Positions 4,594-14,319 of a stretch of 14,319 nt of DNA are shown one piece after another. This DNA is from a bacterium (GTDB taxonomy: Bacteria; SZUA-182; DTGQ01). The stretch lies in the NCBI GenBank assembly GCA_023512255.1, contig JAILZY010000083.1:1-14319 (forward strand). Reading direction: 5' to 3'. The notes under the pieces were generated by a model, which had not been told where the DNA came from, ran no database searches, and saw only the letters and a program-made list of their open reading frames with translations. Within the stretch, counting starts at the first letter, position 1. Every line of letters begins with the position of its first letter. The position numbers were made by a program, and so were the translations under genes.

Positions 4594-5655
4594 ATGAAAA
4601 AAGCGCTCATCCTGCTGGGGCATGGCTCCCGTCTTAAGGAAGCCAATGAATCCCTGTACTCTCTAGCCAAGATAATAAAGAGCAAAAGCAGCCTAGCCAT
4701 AGTGCAACCGGCTTTTCTCCAGCTCGCCTCACCTACCTTACGGGAAGGGATTGAGAGCTGTCTTGCTCAAGGGGCTTCAGAAATCATCGTCCACCCCTAT
4801 TTTCTCTATCCAGGAGCCCATGTACTCCATGATATCCCCGCGATCATTGAAGCCGCCCGCCAAGATCACCCCCAAGTGCGCATCAGGCTCACTCCGCCCT
4901 TGGGAGTAGATGACAAGCTGGCAGAGATTGTTCTTGAAAGAGTTACCGAAATTGAAAAAGAGGCTAACTTGCCGCCTGATCAGGAATTAGATTCTCAACA
5001 ATTAGATCAGCTTCTCTCTGATCCAGACCTGATCGAAAGAAGAAGTCTTGAGATCATCTCAGCTAAAATTCAAGAAGAGGCCTTTCCAATACCCTTGCGC
5101 CCGATAATCAAACGGGTCATTCATGCTACGGCAGATCTGGCCATTGTTTCTGATATTCGCTTCTCCCCCCATTTTTACCAGCAAATTTCAACCTCTCTGC
5201 TCCAGGGAGCGCCGATCATCACCGATGTCTTCATGCTCAAGGAAGCCTTGAATTTGTCCCTATTATCCAAGTTCCGCAATCCGCTCTTTTGCTTTATTCG
5301 GGATAGAGAGGTGAGTGAGATGGCAGAAAAAGAGAAGATCACCCGCTCTATGGCTGCGGTACGAAAAGGAGCCTCTCTTTATCCTGAGGGGATTTATCTT
5401 TTTGGCAATGCTCCGACTGCCCTCCGGGAGATGATCCAGCTATACCGCTGGGGGAAAATTGTACCCGCGGCTGTGGTTGGCTGTCCGGTCGGGTTTGTGG
5501 GCGCATCGGAGGTTAAACGCGAGCTTTGTCAGACAGATCTTCCCTATTTCACCTGCCTGGGCGCCAAGGGAGGAAGTGCTATGGCCGCCGCGGTCATCAA
5601 TGCCCTGCTGCGAGAATTAGCTAAAATTCAATGCCAAAATAGCCAAAATAAATAA
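4594..5655 (+). CDS. cbiX-cbiC: CbiX-CbiC fusion: sirohydrochlorin cobaltochelatase and cobalt-precorrin-8 methylmutase
   Basis: One 353-residue cytoplasmic polypeptide with two activities. Residues 1-125 are a short CbiX (CbiXS-type) chelatase that inserts cobalt into sirohydrochlorin. LLGHGSR carries metal-ligand H10, and HPYFLYPGAHVLHDIP carries the second expected ligand, H76. Residues 126-145 are a polar linker. Residues 146-353 are CbiC/CobH, which moves the C11 methyl to C12 to give cobyrinate. KRVIHATADLA carries the expected catalytic H177; GNAPTAL, GCPVGFVGASEVKREL and GAKGGSAMAAAVINAL are strong CbiC motifs. AGGAG sits 6 bases before the ATG. The two enzymes act at opposite ends of ring synthesis, so the fusion does not channel adjacent steps; co-expression or stoichiometry is a more likely benefit. 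The stop codon lies in a 13-bp tandem duplication (5641-5666). Confidence 0.93.
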   Translation: MKKALILLGHGSRLKEANESLYSLAKIIKSKSSLAIVQPAFLQLASPTLREGIESCLAQGASEIIVHPYFLYPGAHVLHDIPAIIEAARQDHPQVRIRLTPPLGVDDKLAEIVLERVTEIEKEANLPPDQELDSQQLDQLLSDPDLIERRSLEIISAKIQEEAFPIPLRPIIKRVIHATADLAIVSDIRFSPHFYQQISTSLLQGAPIITDVFMLKEALNLSLLSKFRNPLFCFIRDREVSEMAEKEKITRSMAAVRKGASLYPEGIYLFGNAPTALREMIQLYRWGKIVPAAVVGCPVGFVGASEVKRELCQTDLPYFTCLGAKGGSAMAAAVINALLRELAKIQCQNSQNK

Positions 5656-9861: not shown

Positions 9862-9898
9862 ATGAAAAGTTTGAACTTATATGAAGAGTTTAAATGAG
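9862..9898. repeat. 19-bp tandem duplication of the cbiE-cbiT start region
   Basis: ATGAAAAGTTTGAACTTAT (9862-9880) is followed directly by ATGAAGAGTTTAAATGAGT (9881-9899). Both begin with codons for MKSLN, but the upstream ATG opens an 11-codon frame that ends in TGA at 9895-9897, overlapping the true start. The upstream copy is therefore a decoy start or a small upstream ORF. Neither copy has a clear ribosome-binding site. Confidence 0.75.
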
Positions 9899-11161
9899 TG
9901 GTTGCACATTGTAGGTATTGACCCTTGCCCAGCCGCGGGCATCTTAAGCCAAAAGGCAGGTAGTCAAGATCGCTCTCAGCCACATCGGCCCATCCTGCCT
10001 CTGCCTAATGATACGGCGCTATTGGCTGGAGCAGCCAGGCTCTTAGAGCTTTTCCCAGATTTTTCAGGGCAGAAGCTTCCCCTGACTGCGGGTGATCTTG
10101 ATTCCTTCATCGCTCGGATAAAATCCTACCGCGGGCAGCGAGTGGTTGTCCTGGCCTCAGGTGATCCGAATTTTTATGGCCTGGCTGCCACCCTGCTTCA
10201 GCATGTTGATCGAAAGGAGGTGGCCATTTATCCAGCGGTAAGCTCCATGCAATGGGCCTTTGCTAAGGCCAAGATTCCCTGGCATGATGCTGCCCTGATC
10301 AGCCTGCACGGTCGGCCGATGCATCATCTGGCCCGAATCTGGCCAAGGGAAAAAATCGGCATCTTTACCGACCGGGAAAATACCCCACTGCGGATTGCCT
10401 CCTTCCTGCTGGAGCGGGGCGCAAGGCCAGAGGGAGAGTATTTTTTGCTCGAAAATCTTGGCGCTGAAGATGAGAAAATAACCTGCGGCAGACTCAAAGA
10501 TCTGGCTGCTGCTCAGGCAGAGAATGCCCCTCTCAACATCCTCTTGCTTATAAAAGCGGCCTCACCTGAGAGCCCCTTTAGCCGATACCCTGCCCCAGGG
10601 CTTCCAGAAGAGGAATTTTACCATACGGCCGGTCTGATCACTAAGCGGGAAATCAGAGCCGCGGTGCTCTCTTTCCTGAGACCGCAGGAGGATTCAATCC
10701 TCTGGGATATTGGGGCTGGAAGCGGCTCGGTGTCAATCGAGGCCTCGCGCCTCATCCGATCAGGCCTTATCCTGGCCGTAGAAAAAAAGCCTGCCGAGGT
10801 GGAAAACATCATCAAAAACCGCCAAAAATTCCAGGTGTTAAACCTTGAGGTTATTTTGGGAGAGGCCCCCATCGCCCTGGCCGGGCTGCCTGATCCTGAT
10901 CGGATTTTTATCGGCGGAAGTGGCCGCTCTCTTAGCCATAATCTAGTCGCTTGCTGGCAGAGGCTAAAAAAGGGAGGGGTTATGGTCATAAATGCCATTA
11001 CTCTGGAGAGTCTGACCACAGCCAGAGAATTCCTGGTCTCCCAAGCTCGTCGTTTTGATATAATTGCCATCCAAGTTTCCCGAAAGAAAGAGCTGGCCGG
11101 ATCAACCATCATGGAGCCTTCAGCACCGGTATATATTTGCCTTGGGGAAAAGGATTTATAA
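9881..11161 (+). CDS. cbiE-cbiT: CbiE-CbiT fusion: cobalt-precorrin-7 (C5)-methyltransferase and cobalt-precorrin-6B (C15)-methyltransferase (decarboxylating)
   Basis: A 426-residue bifunctional protein equivalent to CobL. Residues 1-225 are CbiE, a class III tetrapyrrole methylase: RVVVLASGDPNFYG (87-100) is the conserved core, and YPAVSSMQWAFAKAKIPWHDA (117-137) and LHGRP follow. The N-terminal loop reads HIVGIDPCPAAG (9-20), where the family usually has a GIG-[PE]-[GD]-G form, and about 20 unconserved residues follow; SAM binding there may be altered. Residues 245-426 are CbiT: GLITKREIRAAVLSFL (251-266), then the class I SAM motif DIGAGSGSVSIE (276-287) and the acidic AVEKKPAE. RIFIGGSGRSL is also typical. 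It is the last recognisable operon gene. Its stop is only 2 bp before the first CRISPR repeat, with no terminator between. Confidence 0.94.
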   Translation: MKSLNEWLHIVGIDPCPAAGILSQKAGSQDRSQPHRPILPLPNDTALLAGAARLLELFPDFSGQKLPLTAGDLDSFIARIKSYRGQRVVVLASGDPNFYGLAATLLQHVDRKEVAIYPAVSSMQWAFAKAKIPWHDAALISLHGRPMHHLARIWPREKIGIFTDRENTPLRIASFLLERGARPEGEYFLLENLGAEDEKITCGRLKDLAAAQAENAPLNILLLIKAASPESPFSRYPAPGLPEEEFYHTAGLITKREIRAAVLSFLRPQEDSILWDIGAGSGSVSIEASRLIRSGLILAVEKKPAEVENIIKNRQKFQVLNLEVILGEAPIALAGLPDPDRIFIGGSGRSLSHNLVACWQRLKKGGVMVINAITLESLTTAREFLVSQARRFDIIAIQVSRKKELAGSTIMEPSAPVYICLGEKDL

Positions 11162-11163
11162 AT

Positions 11164-11349
11164 GTCGCAATCCCTTAATCATCAGGTCATGGATTTCTAC
11201 TTACGGCGGCTCCCAATGATCCATATCCCCCTCCGGAGGTGGAGGTCGTATATAAAACCCTGGAAACATCTCATCCGGGGCACATGTATTTAGGAGCGGC
11301 GGTAGCCCTATAGTCGCAATCCCTTAATCATCAGGTCATGGATTTCTAC
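11164..11349 (-). CRISPR. Two outlying CRISPR repeats around a 112-bp interval
   Basis: Repeats at 11164-11200 and 11313-11349 are identical to the main-array consensus, which starts GTCGCAATCCC and ends GGATTTCTAC on the + strand. The interval 11201-11312 is 112 bp, far above the 38-54 bp of the main array. No internal repeat remnant is seen in it. It is open on the + strand from 11203 (...VVYKTLETSHPGHMYLGAAVAL, then stop) and also open on the - strand, so it may be a captured gene fragment or an unusually long spacer. The first repeat begins 2 bp after the cbiE-cbiT stop codon. Confidence 0.85.
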
Positions 11350-11782
11350 TTGAATATCAAGACAGCCAAGAACGCTATAAATGCAACAAGTGCTAAACCG
11401 ATGAGGATCACACCCCATTTTATCATTCTAACAATAGATTGTAATTCCTTATTTGTAGAAAAAAATCCTTTTTCTATTATATTAATTCCAGTTCCCAACA
11501 GCATAAGAACATCATCTGCCCAGCCTATGTGATCGGGATATCTGGAATAATATCAATTGGAGAAATCGTATATAACACCGCTAGCCCGAGCAGCACATAT
11601 GGCCAAAATGAGACCTTATTTTCGGCAGGTATTACCGACATGACATCGGTAGCCACATTCGAACCAGAAGAAGCACATACCAATTCTGTCTTTTGAGCTG
11701 GTGAATTAAGAAACTCACCGCAATGTTTACACTTGATGGCTTGATCTTGAATCTCTTCTGCACAAAATGGGCACGCTTTCAT
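11346..11782 (-). pseudogene. Frameshifted zinc-ribbon / DUF1232 membrane protein
   Basis: Reads leftward from an ATG at 11782-11780 with a good AAGGAG ribosome-binding site. Residues 1-25 are a zinc ribbon, CPFCAEEIQDQAIKCKHCG, with four cysteines (4, 7, 18, 21). A hydrophobic segment then leads to SPIDIIPDIPI, the core of DUF1232 (YkvA-like) proteins. The frame stops at 11525, but two extra bases (or one lost) at 11529-11530 account for it: in the shifted frame the protein continues IGWADDVLMLLGTGINIIEK and ends in a hydrophobic helix near ALVAFIAFLAVLIFK, about 144 residues in all. The last codon uses one base of the CRISPR repeat at 11313-11349, and the TAG stop (11348-11346) lies inside that repeat. 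A sequencing error could also explain the frameshift. DUF1232 function is not established. Confidence 0.82.
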
Positions 11783-11787
11783 TTTGC

Positions 11788-12010
11788 TCTCCTTAACGTG
11801 AGTTCGATATAACTATGGTGAAAAAAAATAAGTAAATCAAGCGGATATACTCAAAAACCGTGAATATAAGACTCTAATAAGAGTACAAATAGTTAATCAC
11901 GTCTATAAATTGGGATGATAATACTATTTAATTTCCTAGAAGTCTCGGAAAAATAAAATGTTAATAGTTTCTTATAAGCTCCCTTATGTCGAACTCACGT
12001 TCTCCTTAAC
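11788..12010. mobile_element. MITE-like element with terminal inverted repeats and flanking direct repeat
   Basis: AACGTGAGTTCGATATAA (11795-11812) is the reverse complement of TTATGTCGAACTCACGTT (11984-12001) except for one base. TCTCCTTAAC occurs just outside or overlapping both ends (11788-11797 and 12001-12010), consistent with a target-site duplication of about 9-10 bp. The roughly 203-207-bp body is AT-rich and has no ORF, as in non-autonomous elements. It lies between the promoter region and the ribosome-binding site of the DUF1232 gene. The boundary is uncertain by 1-3 bases because inverted and direct repeats overlap. Confidence 0.7.
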
Positions 12011-12108
12011 TTTACTTTCGACAATATCTGTTCGCCCATTCGGATTTTGATTGACATTCCTTATCTTGGTGGAAGTTGGAGAGGGCTGGATATCAATATT
12101 CAACCCCC

Positions 12109-13031
12109 GTCGCAATCCCTTAATCATCAGGTCATGGATTTCTACCCGCAAATCCTTTTAACCCGCCCTAAAATCCTTTTAACCCGCCCGTCGCAATCCC
12201 TTAATCATCAGGTCATGGATTTCTACAGAATGCTTGACACTGAACTTGAAAAGAGTAAACAGGAAGTTTCTTCAAGGTATGTCGCAATCCCTTAATCATC
12301 AGGTCATGGATTTCTACTTGATTAGAATATTTCTCATCACTTCACATTGTTCATGCGTCGCAATCCCTTAATCATCAGGTCATGGATTTCTACCCAAAGT
12401 GCAAAACCAAGATATTCAGCAGAACTGAGTATGATGTGTCGCAATCCCTTAATCATCAGGTCATGGATTTCTACAGAAAAATAATGAGAATGGAAATACA
12501 AATCCAGCTTAAAAATTTTAAAGTCGCAATCCCTTAATCATCAGGTCATGGATTTCTACGATAATCCCCCCGACATCATCAGGGAGGGGCGGGATGCCGC
12601 CCTGGGGGGTCGCAATCCCTTAATCATCAGGTCATGGATTTCTACAATGTCGACAGCATCGCTTAGGATTGGCTCTTTTGAGTAGGTCGCAATCCCTTAA
12701 TCATCAGGTCATGGATTTCTACCTAGGTACGAGAGAACTTTGAACGGACTTAGTGCAATAAAAACCGTCGCAATCCCTTAATCATCGGGTCATGGATTTC
12801 TACTATGATTGGGGGGGGAAAAATAATCCATTAACATTAACATTGTCGCAATCCCTTAATCATCAGGTCATGGATTTCTACTTATCAGTGCCATACCAAG
12901 TCGCTTCTTTTATGCTTGTGTCGCAATCCCTTAATCATCAGGTCATGGATTTCTACTCTCTATTAATTCACTATTTGTTAGTGAGTTAATAGAGGTCGCA
13001 ATCCCTTAATCATCAGGTCATAGATTTCTAC
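12109..13031 (-). CRISPR. CRISPR array, 12 repeats of 37 bp and 11 spacers, no cas genes in window
   Basis: Repeats start at 12109, 12190, 12281, 12357, 12438, 12523, 12609, 12686, 12767, 12845, 12920 and 12995. Spacer lengths are 44, 54, 39, 44, 48, 49, 40, 44, 41, 38 and 38. All repeats are identical except 12767 (A to G at repeat position 21) and 12995 (G to A at position 28). The - strand is chosen as transcribed because the repeat then ends AAGGGATTGCGAC, resembling the ATTGAAAC-type 5' handle of many type I and III crRNAs, and because AT-rich, gene-free sequence suitable for a leader lies only on the right. AATCC and GGATT in the repeat can pair weakly. Spacers 12227-12280 and 12560-12608 read as open, protein-like sequence. 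Type cannot be assigned without cas genes. Confidence 0.97.
12957..12994. repeat. CRISPR spacer that is a near-perfect hairpin
   Basis: The spacer is one T, then CTCTATTAATTCACTA, a TTTGT loop, then TAGTGAGTTAATAGAG. The arms form 16 pairs including one G-T wobble and use the whole spacer. If the leader is on the right, this is the newest spacer. Confidence 0.85.
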
Positions 13032-13260
13032 CCCTTGCCTTTTTTGCACCAATAGATTCAAGTAGTTATTCTGGCATTTCCTGTAAGGTATCTTTTCCAT
13101 GCTCATCATCGACCCTCAAAACTCCCTAATTTGTCCTCTCAATGCTAATTTAATCTTAAAATATCAATAACTTGCCGTTTCCCTGTAACCACACCCTCTT
13201 TTGGGTATGTTTTAAAATTTCGTTTATTATACAAATTTATTCTATAAATTATAAAAAATT
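13032..13260 (-). promoter_or_regulatory. Candidate CRISPR leader
   Basis: AT-rich non-coding sequence adjoining the last repeat. It would act leftward if the array is transcribed on the - strand. Read on that strand it contains TATAAT (at 13231-13226) with only a weak -35 match. The left flank of the array is a gene and has no room for a leader. The assignment depends on the inferred orientation. Confidence 0.4.
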
Positions 13261-14319
13261 CTAAATTGCATAATATGGCCTAATTTTCTTATCCCAGCCA
13301 AAGCAGGATTGCCATCCTTAAATAAAAAACCTGGATTCAATAAAAAGCCTGGATTCCTAGTTTTAAGACCGTGTCGTAATTAAATTCCCTTCTACTCTTG
13401 AGTGTCAATTTTTCATCTTGCCCCGCTTTTATCTTGCCTCACTTGCCCTGCTTGCTCAACCTAATCTCGCCCTGCCCGCTTGCCCCACTCGCCCGCTCTC
13501 TTGCCCTTTGCCCCTCTTGCCTTATTCTCTTTGCTCAAAATGCTAATCTGTAACCTTATCTTAAAATGTATCTGGTAGTGAGGTTCAGATAGGCTTTTAA
13601 TCAATCATCCATCTAATCAATCATCCATCGGCCAAAAATAGTTTTTGCTCAAATACCATGTTTAATTAAATCATACTCAAAGTTTGATTTAAAATCAAGA
13701 TCTTTTTTTAAAAAATTTCACTTATTAGTTAGCTCTCCATCATTATTATTTGCGCATTTATTATTTCCGCGTCTATTATTGCCGCGCAAGCGGGGATCCA
13801 TGGTCGTGAGAAGAGGCATAAGCAGGCAGCTTGTCAATTCATTTTCGCGCAAGTGGGAATCCTGGGACATACGCAAGCCCTGTGGCCAGGAGGCGATTGC
13901 TAATCATTTCCGGGTAAGCTAATGTCTAGAAAAGGTGAACGAAGTATAGAGTGAATTTTAACTAAGAATCCAATATCAGAACTTTACTCAAGTTGAGGAT
14001 ATTGGAATGGCATCAAAGCTACTATACTTGTTCAAGTTAGGTTTTGATTGGCATGAGGATTTCCCTCTTTGGGCAAGGCCTTTAAATCTACGCTAAGAGT
14101 GAATCTTTCTGTGATGGCACACCTTTAATGGGGTGAAATCTATATATAGGTGAAATCTATATATATTAAATGAAATGTATATATAATGAAATGCCTGTTA
14201 TCTGGCCAAGCAGCCGGCTTTTAAGGTAAATCAGCAAGGGAACTCAGATGTTCCCCATGTTTAAATTAGGAGGAGGAGATAAGCCGCAGGGTAAGGGTAT
14301 TGAGGTAAAAGACAATAGT
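13261..14319. other. Gene-free, repeat-rich AT-rich region
   Basis: No convincing coding sequence is seen on either strand. It holds three short tandem duplications: an 18-bp pair ending CCTGGATTC (13321-13338, 13339-13356), AATCAATCATCCATC (13599-13613, 13615-13629) and GGTGAAATCTATATATA (14132-14148, 14149-14165). A pyrimidine-rich tract with about nine CTTGCC-like units lies at 13415-13525, and two inverted copies of the dispersed palindromic repeat at 13779-13865. A 29-codon frame from 14007 has no ribosome-binding site. AGGAGGAGGAG at 14268-14278 could be a ribosome-binding site for a gene beyond the window. Confidence 0.6.
13779..13865 (-). repeat. Two dispersed palindromic repeats, copies D and E
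   Basis: On the - strand, 13803-13779 reads TGGATCCCCGCTTGCGCGGC and 13865-13840 includes AGGATTCCCACTTGCGCG followed by AAAATG. Both match the TGGATTCCCGCTTNCGCGGG + AATGACG unit. They lie in the same orientation about 60 bp apart. Confidence 0.55.

Follow-up and report, generated by a model that had tools for sequence, protein, structure and literature searches.

The spacers of CRISPR arrays are thought to be strictly measured. Two kinds of event that respect repeat borders are known in principle: Cas1-Cas2 can integrate DNA and copy the repeat in doing so, or two repeats can recombine homologously. Solo repeat units are known to occur next to phage genes, and Cre-type RNA modules close to cas genes; each integron cassette consists of a single gene with a recombination site behind it, and all point the same way. 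In CRISPR locus F of Sulfolobus solfataricus, an 899-bp fragment of a pNOB8-like plasmid lies between two repeats (PMC4390879, section 4.5), and the same review remarks that very few array irregularities of this kind have been observed (PMC4390879). Insertions of transposable elements into CRISPR arrays have likewise been described, as in the cases of a 132-bp MITE, ISH4 and ISC1359 (PMC4390879). In casposons, a Cas1-family enzyme, the casposase, inserts long DNA with duplication of the target site (PMC6977970, PMC4046053).

The window considered here is a whole contig (C87; 14,319 nucleotides) of a draft bacterial genome of 3.83 Mb in 172 contigs; on it, a CRISPR array follows a cobalamin-synthesis operon (Table 1). 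Within the operon, positions 4594-5655 encode a single protein that fuses the CbiX and CbiC (precorrin-8X methylmutase) domains. The 14 repeats of the array, against 0 expected in shuffled sequence, are regularly arranged with a leader at one end, which is common with that of a second array on C112 (4 repeats) and partly with that of a third on C120, a contig whose first bases match the repeat-proximal 77 bp of the window leader. The position of the leader, to the right of the repeats, means that transcription of the array runs leftward from the minus strand, that its two leftmost intervals are the oldest and that the gene in the second of these points in the same direction as the array transcript. 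From left to right, the intervals measure 112, 759, 44, 54, 39, 44, 48, 49, 40, 44, 41, 38 and 38 bp. The normal spacers of this array are thus 38-54 bp long, and the usual range across the arrays is 35-63 bp; outside it fall the 759-bp interval (also when counted as 546 bp without its MITE), its 112-bp neighbour, for which no match was found in Pfam, NCBIfam or plasmids, and a 515-bp interval on C120.

Table 1. Features of the array and its surroundings, in positions of the window
Feature	Position	Strand	Remarks
cbiET	9881..11161	+	2 bp separate its stop codon from the last repeat; next gene in the congener is cbiL
CRISPR array, transcribed leftward	11164..13031	-	14 repeats of 37 nt; leader side
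Oversized 112-bp interval, oldest in the array	11201..11312	-	minus-strand frame ends in TAA beside the repeat
Perfect repeat flanking the gene at its 3' end, source of its stop codon	11313..11349	-	repeat match
Zinc-ribbon, DUF1232 and transmembrane gene, frameshifted near 11533-11540	11346..11782	-	ORF, profiles
Gene-bearing interval, 759 bp	11350..12108	-	546 bp without the MITE and one copy of the target duplication
MITE, ends AACGTGAG...CTCACGTT	11795..12001		207 bp; CTCCTT duplication at 11789-11794 and 12002-12007
Rest of the block upstream of the gene, reaching the repeat	12008..12108	-	sequence
Perfect repeat flanking the block on its 5' side	12109..12145	-	repeat match
Leader	13032..13253	-	222 bp, 97.7% identical to the leader of the C112 array
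Stretch upstream of the leader	13339..13581	-	resembles (about 69% identity) the roughly 300 bp that follow cas2 on C11
IS-type end at the contig end	14244..14319		similar ends close C144 and C130; a 22-bp part is common to C10 and C11

The original prediction, made from the letters of the window, had placed a zinc-ribbon/DUF1232 gene, read like the array transcript and ending in a stop codon furnished by the repeat, in a 759-bp space between two unmutated repeats. All of this stands: the coordinates hold, both flanking repeats are exact copies, the direction of the array is fixed by the leader, which matches that of C112 over its full 222 bp, and the profile searches support the family assignment. 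The gene starts at 11782, preceded by AAGGAG, and encodes MKACPFCAEEIQ..., a zinc ribbon, and ...LYTISPIDIIPDIP, the DUF1232 domain. Its minus-strand ORF at 11525-11782 scores 26.8 bits against Zn_ribbon_3, just below the cut-off of 27, and 25.9 bits against DUF1232 (PF06803), rising to 32.2 bits when the frameshift is bridged by X, the cut-off being 23. Past the frameshift, the other frame is open, reading DHIGWADDVLML... and a hydrophobic helix ending ...VLIFK, and then closes with a TAG at 11348-11346, formed by bases 2-4 of the repeat as it is transcribed. In other genomes, the nearest homologues, which are 31-35% identical, have the C-termini ...ALVVK and ...ALIVK, immediately followed by the stop; as they terminate at the same residue, the repeat starts at the natural stop codon of the gene. 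The DUF1232 homologues are general small proteins present in 52 of the 386 genomes searched, and a broad genome scan with the gene of the block found zinc-ribbon relatives only. The further claim that the gene is now inactive is plausible in view of the frameshift and the MITE, with the reservation that the frameshift may be a one-base sequencing error.

Three features came to light beyond that prediction: the 207-bp MITE, the oversized 112-bp interval and a second gene-bearing interval, that on C120. The 6-bp target duplication of the MITE, CTCCTT, keeps AAGGAG beside the start codon of the gene, and, as the MITE came later, the block was originally 546 bp long. A relative of the MITE that is 85% identical lies at C15:1907-2126; the ends of the family are AACGTGAGTTCGAYAT, and partial copies occur on C21, C88, C97 and C128. 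A MITE-like end is also seen just before cbiL on C10.

The surroundings of the array can be compared with those in a congener (G001). Its cbiET is 76% identical and is followed by cbiL, with neither an array nor a DUF1232 gene at this site. In the genome under study, cbiL lies near the end of C10, and C10 and the window have IS-type ends with a shared 22-bp part, so that the array with its leader has probably landed between cbiET and cbiL. Two arrays of the congener have 88 and 42 repeats with intervals of 33-38 and 38-51 bp, respectively, and none larger. The DUF1232 gene, with a GC content of 39% and a GC3 of 37-43%, differs from the neighbouring cob genes (GC 50%, GC3 53-54%) and is close to the spacers (GC 39%); the gene in the C120 interval, which codes for 106 aa, has a GC of 44% and a GC3 of 37%. 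Both genes, therefore, look like mobile-element DNA, as the spacers do, and for the DUF1232 gene it is composition that suggests this.

The original prediction had also proposed looking for further genes flanked by the same repeat, and this led to C120 and C144. C120 has 23 copies of the repeat, some of them decayed, and its oldest interval, of 515 bp, contains the complete 106-aa gene in array orientation, with mutated distal repeats. C144 has one degenerate copy and starts within a second copy of the 106-aa gene, of which it holds the 3' end together with most of the repeat (97% identity over 190 bp). Next on C144 come cas6, a gene for a CARF-type protein, cas10 and other csm genes, and then csm5, of which the first half is present before an IS end interrupts it. 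On C11 there are genes for a CARF nuclease, csx3, cas1 and cas2, and an ORF with no family match that we take for the remainder of csm5. A type III-A set is thus linked to this repeat, with Cas6, Cas10 (Csm1) and Csm5 encoded on C144 near its solo repeat, and cas1 and cas2 on C11. Since part of C11 is about 69% identical to the stretch upstream of the window leader and C120 begins inside the leader, C11, a leader and C120 probably join. We infer the order C144-C11-C120, in which case the III-A locus would have a copy of the 106-aa gene and its repeat on either side, and the C120 array is probably the array of that locus.

The 106-aa gene had no match in Pfam, PHROGs, NCBIfam, PADLOC or viral contigs. 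Its sole outside orthologue among the 386 genomes is in G001 (63% identical), where its neighbours are a Mu-like portal gene on one side and a peptidase gene on the other, and no repeats are present. Several smaller observations attach to these contigs. Past the repeat of the 106-aa gene on C120, there is a possible decayed terminal repeat at L009:2388-2424 (3' half ATTAAGGGATGGCAAC), and the 515-bp block contains a palindromic REP-like sequence at L009:1850-1920 with relatives on C135 and other contigs. The csm5 gene appears to be split by an IS (right ends of C144 and C11; L082, L079), the ends of which also close C87, C10 and C130, so that III-A interference may be impaired. Solo repeats occur directly upstream of cas6 on C144 (L011:157-193) and just upstream of cas1 in G001 (L085:7187-7223), the latter immediately before the gene and 1.8 kb from the congener's array of 42 repeats. 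Possible roles for these solo repeats are in the processing of the cas mRNA by Cas6 or in regulation.

The presence of exact repeats on both sides, together with the lack of any spacer remnant at the 3' border of the gene, points to an event that respected the repeat borders. Our favoured reading, to which we give a probability of roughly 0.4, is that the array, while still young, captured an undivided piece of mobile-element DNA between two of its repeats, most likely through oversize integration by Cas1-Cas2. The type III-A Cas1-Cas2 would have integrated an untrimmed fragment of about 546 bp beside the leader, with the repeat being copied on both sides as for a normal spacer. Normal spacers acquired later would then have pushed the block towards the old end of the array. 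The block then decayed through the entry of the MITE next to the ribosome-binding site and a break in the coding frame. On C120, the 515-bp gene block would be a second such capture. We would name Cas1-Cas2 as the capturing agent, in preference to recombination, in that a single step then explains both borders and the foreign composition. In keeping with capture are the unmutated flanking repeats, the foreign composition, the second case on C120, the oversized 112-bp neighbour and the Sulfolobus parallel. To these, the gene content and sequence similarities of the contigs would add the III-A set with cas1 and cas2, and a region after cas2 that resembles the stretch upstream of the leader. On these grounds, this system seems to have captured DNA of the size of a gene on more than one occasion, and the block is most likely decayed captured foreign DNA and not a working immune gene.

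Against oversize capture stands, in the first place, the fact that Cas1-Cas2 complexes measure spacer length, and we know of no report of a 500-bp integration by them. Further, just three of the 38 intervals in the three arrays of the genome exceed 100 bp, namely the two oldest of the 13 in the window array and the oldest of the 22 on C120; a placement of this kind has a probability of about 1/1716 and is not what random oversize capture predicts. The two whole genes both run with the array, one of them stopping exactly at the repeat, and so show more order than random fragments would. A donor for the DUF1232 block was found neither in the genome itself nor among phages or plasmids, nor in viral contigs, where one scan gave zinc-ribbon matches only and another no match.

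The other main candidate, which we regard as possible and the strongest of the alternatives, had been raised in the original prediction as repeat-to-repeat recombination and has gained from the finding that another gene with its repeat is present twice in the genome. Here, the gene would have come already joined to a repeat, from a mobile element or another array, and entered as a unit of gene and repeat by homologous recombination between repeats. The presence of the 106-aa gene and the repeat downstream of it on both C120 and C144, at 97% identity, fits this, as do the solo repeats beside genes in this genome and in G001, and the three arrays with a common leader and repeat would furnish abundant substrates. 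Moreover, pNOB8, the plasmid of the Sulfolobus case, itself carries a small CRISPR locus (PMC4390879). Recombination may indeed be needed in any event for the duplicated copy of the 106-aa gene and its repeat. However, it leaves the first joining of gene and repeat unexplained, the DUF1232 block has no second copy in the genome, and the exact repeat was not found in other genomes or viral contigs. Neither Cas1-Cas2 integration nor repeat recombination alone explains the oldest-end position of every case.

That position is what recommends the next alternative, which we nevertheless consider doubtful: a leader and repeat landed beside resident genes at which a stray repeat was already present, and later growth from the leader side left the oversize intervals as a scar of the array's founding. 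Every such interval is leader-distal, and the distal repeats at the 106-aa gene are mutated, whereas those in the window are perfect. The related proposal that repeats integrated around an older gene gains no support at this site, given the congener's cbiET-cbiL arrangement free of both the array and the DUF1232 gene, and the composition of the block differs from that of its neighbourhood. Founding beside resident genes would account for the oldest-end cases, but it fits the perfect distal repeats and the congener site less well.

A broader idea, improbable as we see it, is that arrays in this lineage act as sites of whole-gene capture, where a small gene and its repeat, always in array orientation, would enter as a unit, spread as copies among the arrays and to the cas locus, and could be expressed from the array transcript with trimming by Cas6, in the manner of integron cassettes. 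Slightly less probable still is the splitting of the array by a large insertion, in which a mobile element bearing the gene would have entered a spacer. A MITE is present in the block and IS elements are active in the genome, but no element ends lie at the block borders, the paired ends and target duplication being those of the inner MITE, and no further copies of the block occur in the genome. The natural end of the gene is the repeat itself, leaving no half of a spacer on that side, and on the strength of this exact border we rejected an element inserted into a spacer. A wrong contig join within the 37-bp repeat is very unlikely, for, although a 172-contig draft with many identical repeats and collapsed copies at other contig ends invites such errors, the contig ends share about 75-76 bp, which suggests joins from words longer than the repeat, and the same structure recurs independently on C120. 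Equally improbable is a gene retained for immunity and expressed from the array transcript, a role for which no evidence was found: its orientation, its ribosome-binding site and a stop codon upstream of what is probably the Cas6 cut would suit such cargo, but the frameshift and MITE, the general nature of the DUF1232 homologues and the lack of a PADLOC match speak against it.

Set beside the known systems, the C144 unit resembles solo repeats and Cre-type modules in having a gene beside a single CRISPR repeat, but in neither array does the neighbouring interval share a promoter-like seed match with the gene block. A single overlapping match of 9-10 nt between the 112-bp interval and the block is intragenic and away from the promoter, and none was found for C120; CreA-like regulation by the neighbouring intervals was accordingly rejected. 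As in integron cassettes, the genes of the block and of C120 are single and in one orientation, whereas here there is no integrase or attC, and the repeat is a unit of spacer acquisition. The MITE within the block recalls the IS and MITE insertions into arrays, with the difference that it is secondary and that the block is bordered by repeats and not by transposon ends. The reaction supposed for the block is that of casposons, with a CRISPR repeat as the duplicated site; yet the block is one small gene lacking terminal inverted repeats, PolB and a casposase, its only paired ends being those of the MITE.

The occurrence of gene-sized intervals twice in one genome, between perfect or near-perfect repeats and at the oldest end, offers a concrete case in which integration of long DNA by Cas1-Cas2 can be set against cargo exchange by repeat recombination, and either answer would bear on the birth of arrays and the supposed casposon origin of CRISPR. 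Further parallels to a gene-sized interval were not found in open papers, which is weak evidence. The closest likeness is to locus F of S. solfataricus, where gene-sized mobile-element DNA also lies between the repeats of an otherwise regular array. Unlike that locus, the present case involves two arrays of one genome, the blocks at their oldest ends contain whole small genes that are read in the direction of the array, and one of the gene and repeat units has a second copy beside cas6. The gene-sized interval is a rare form of a known irregularity, and its recurrence within one genome adds to its interest.
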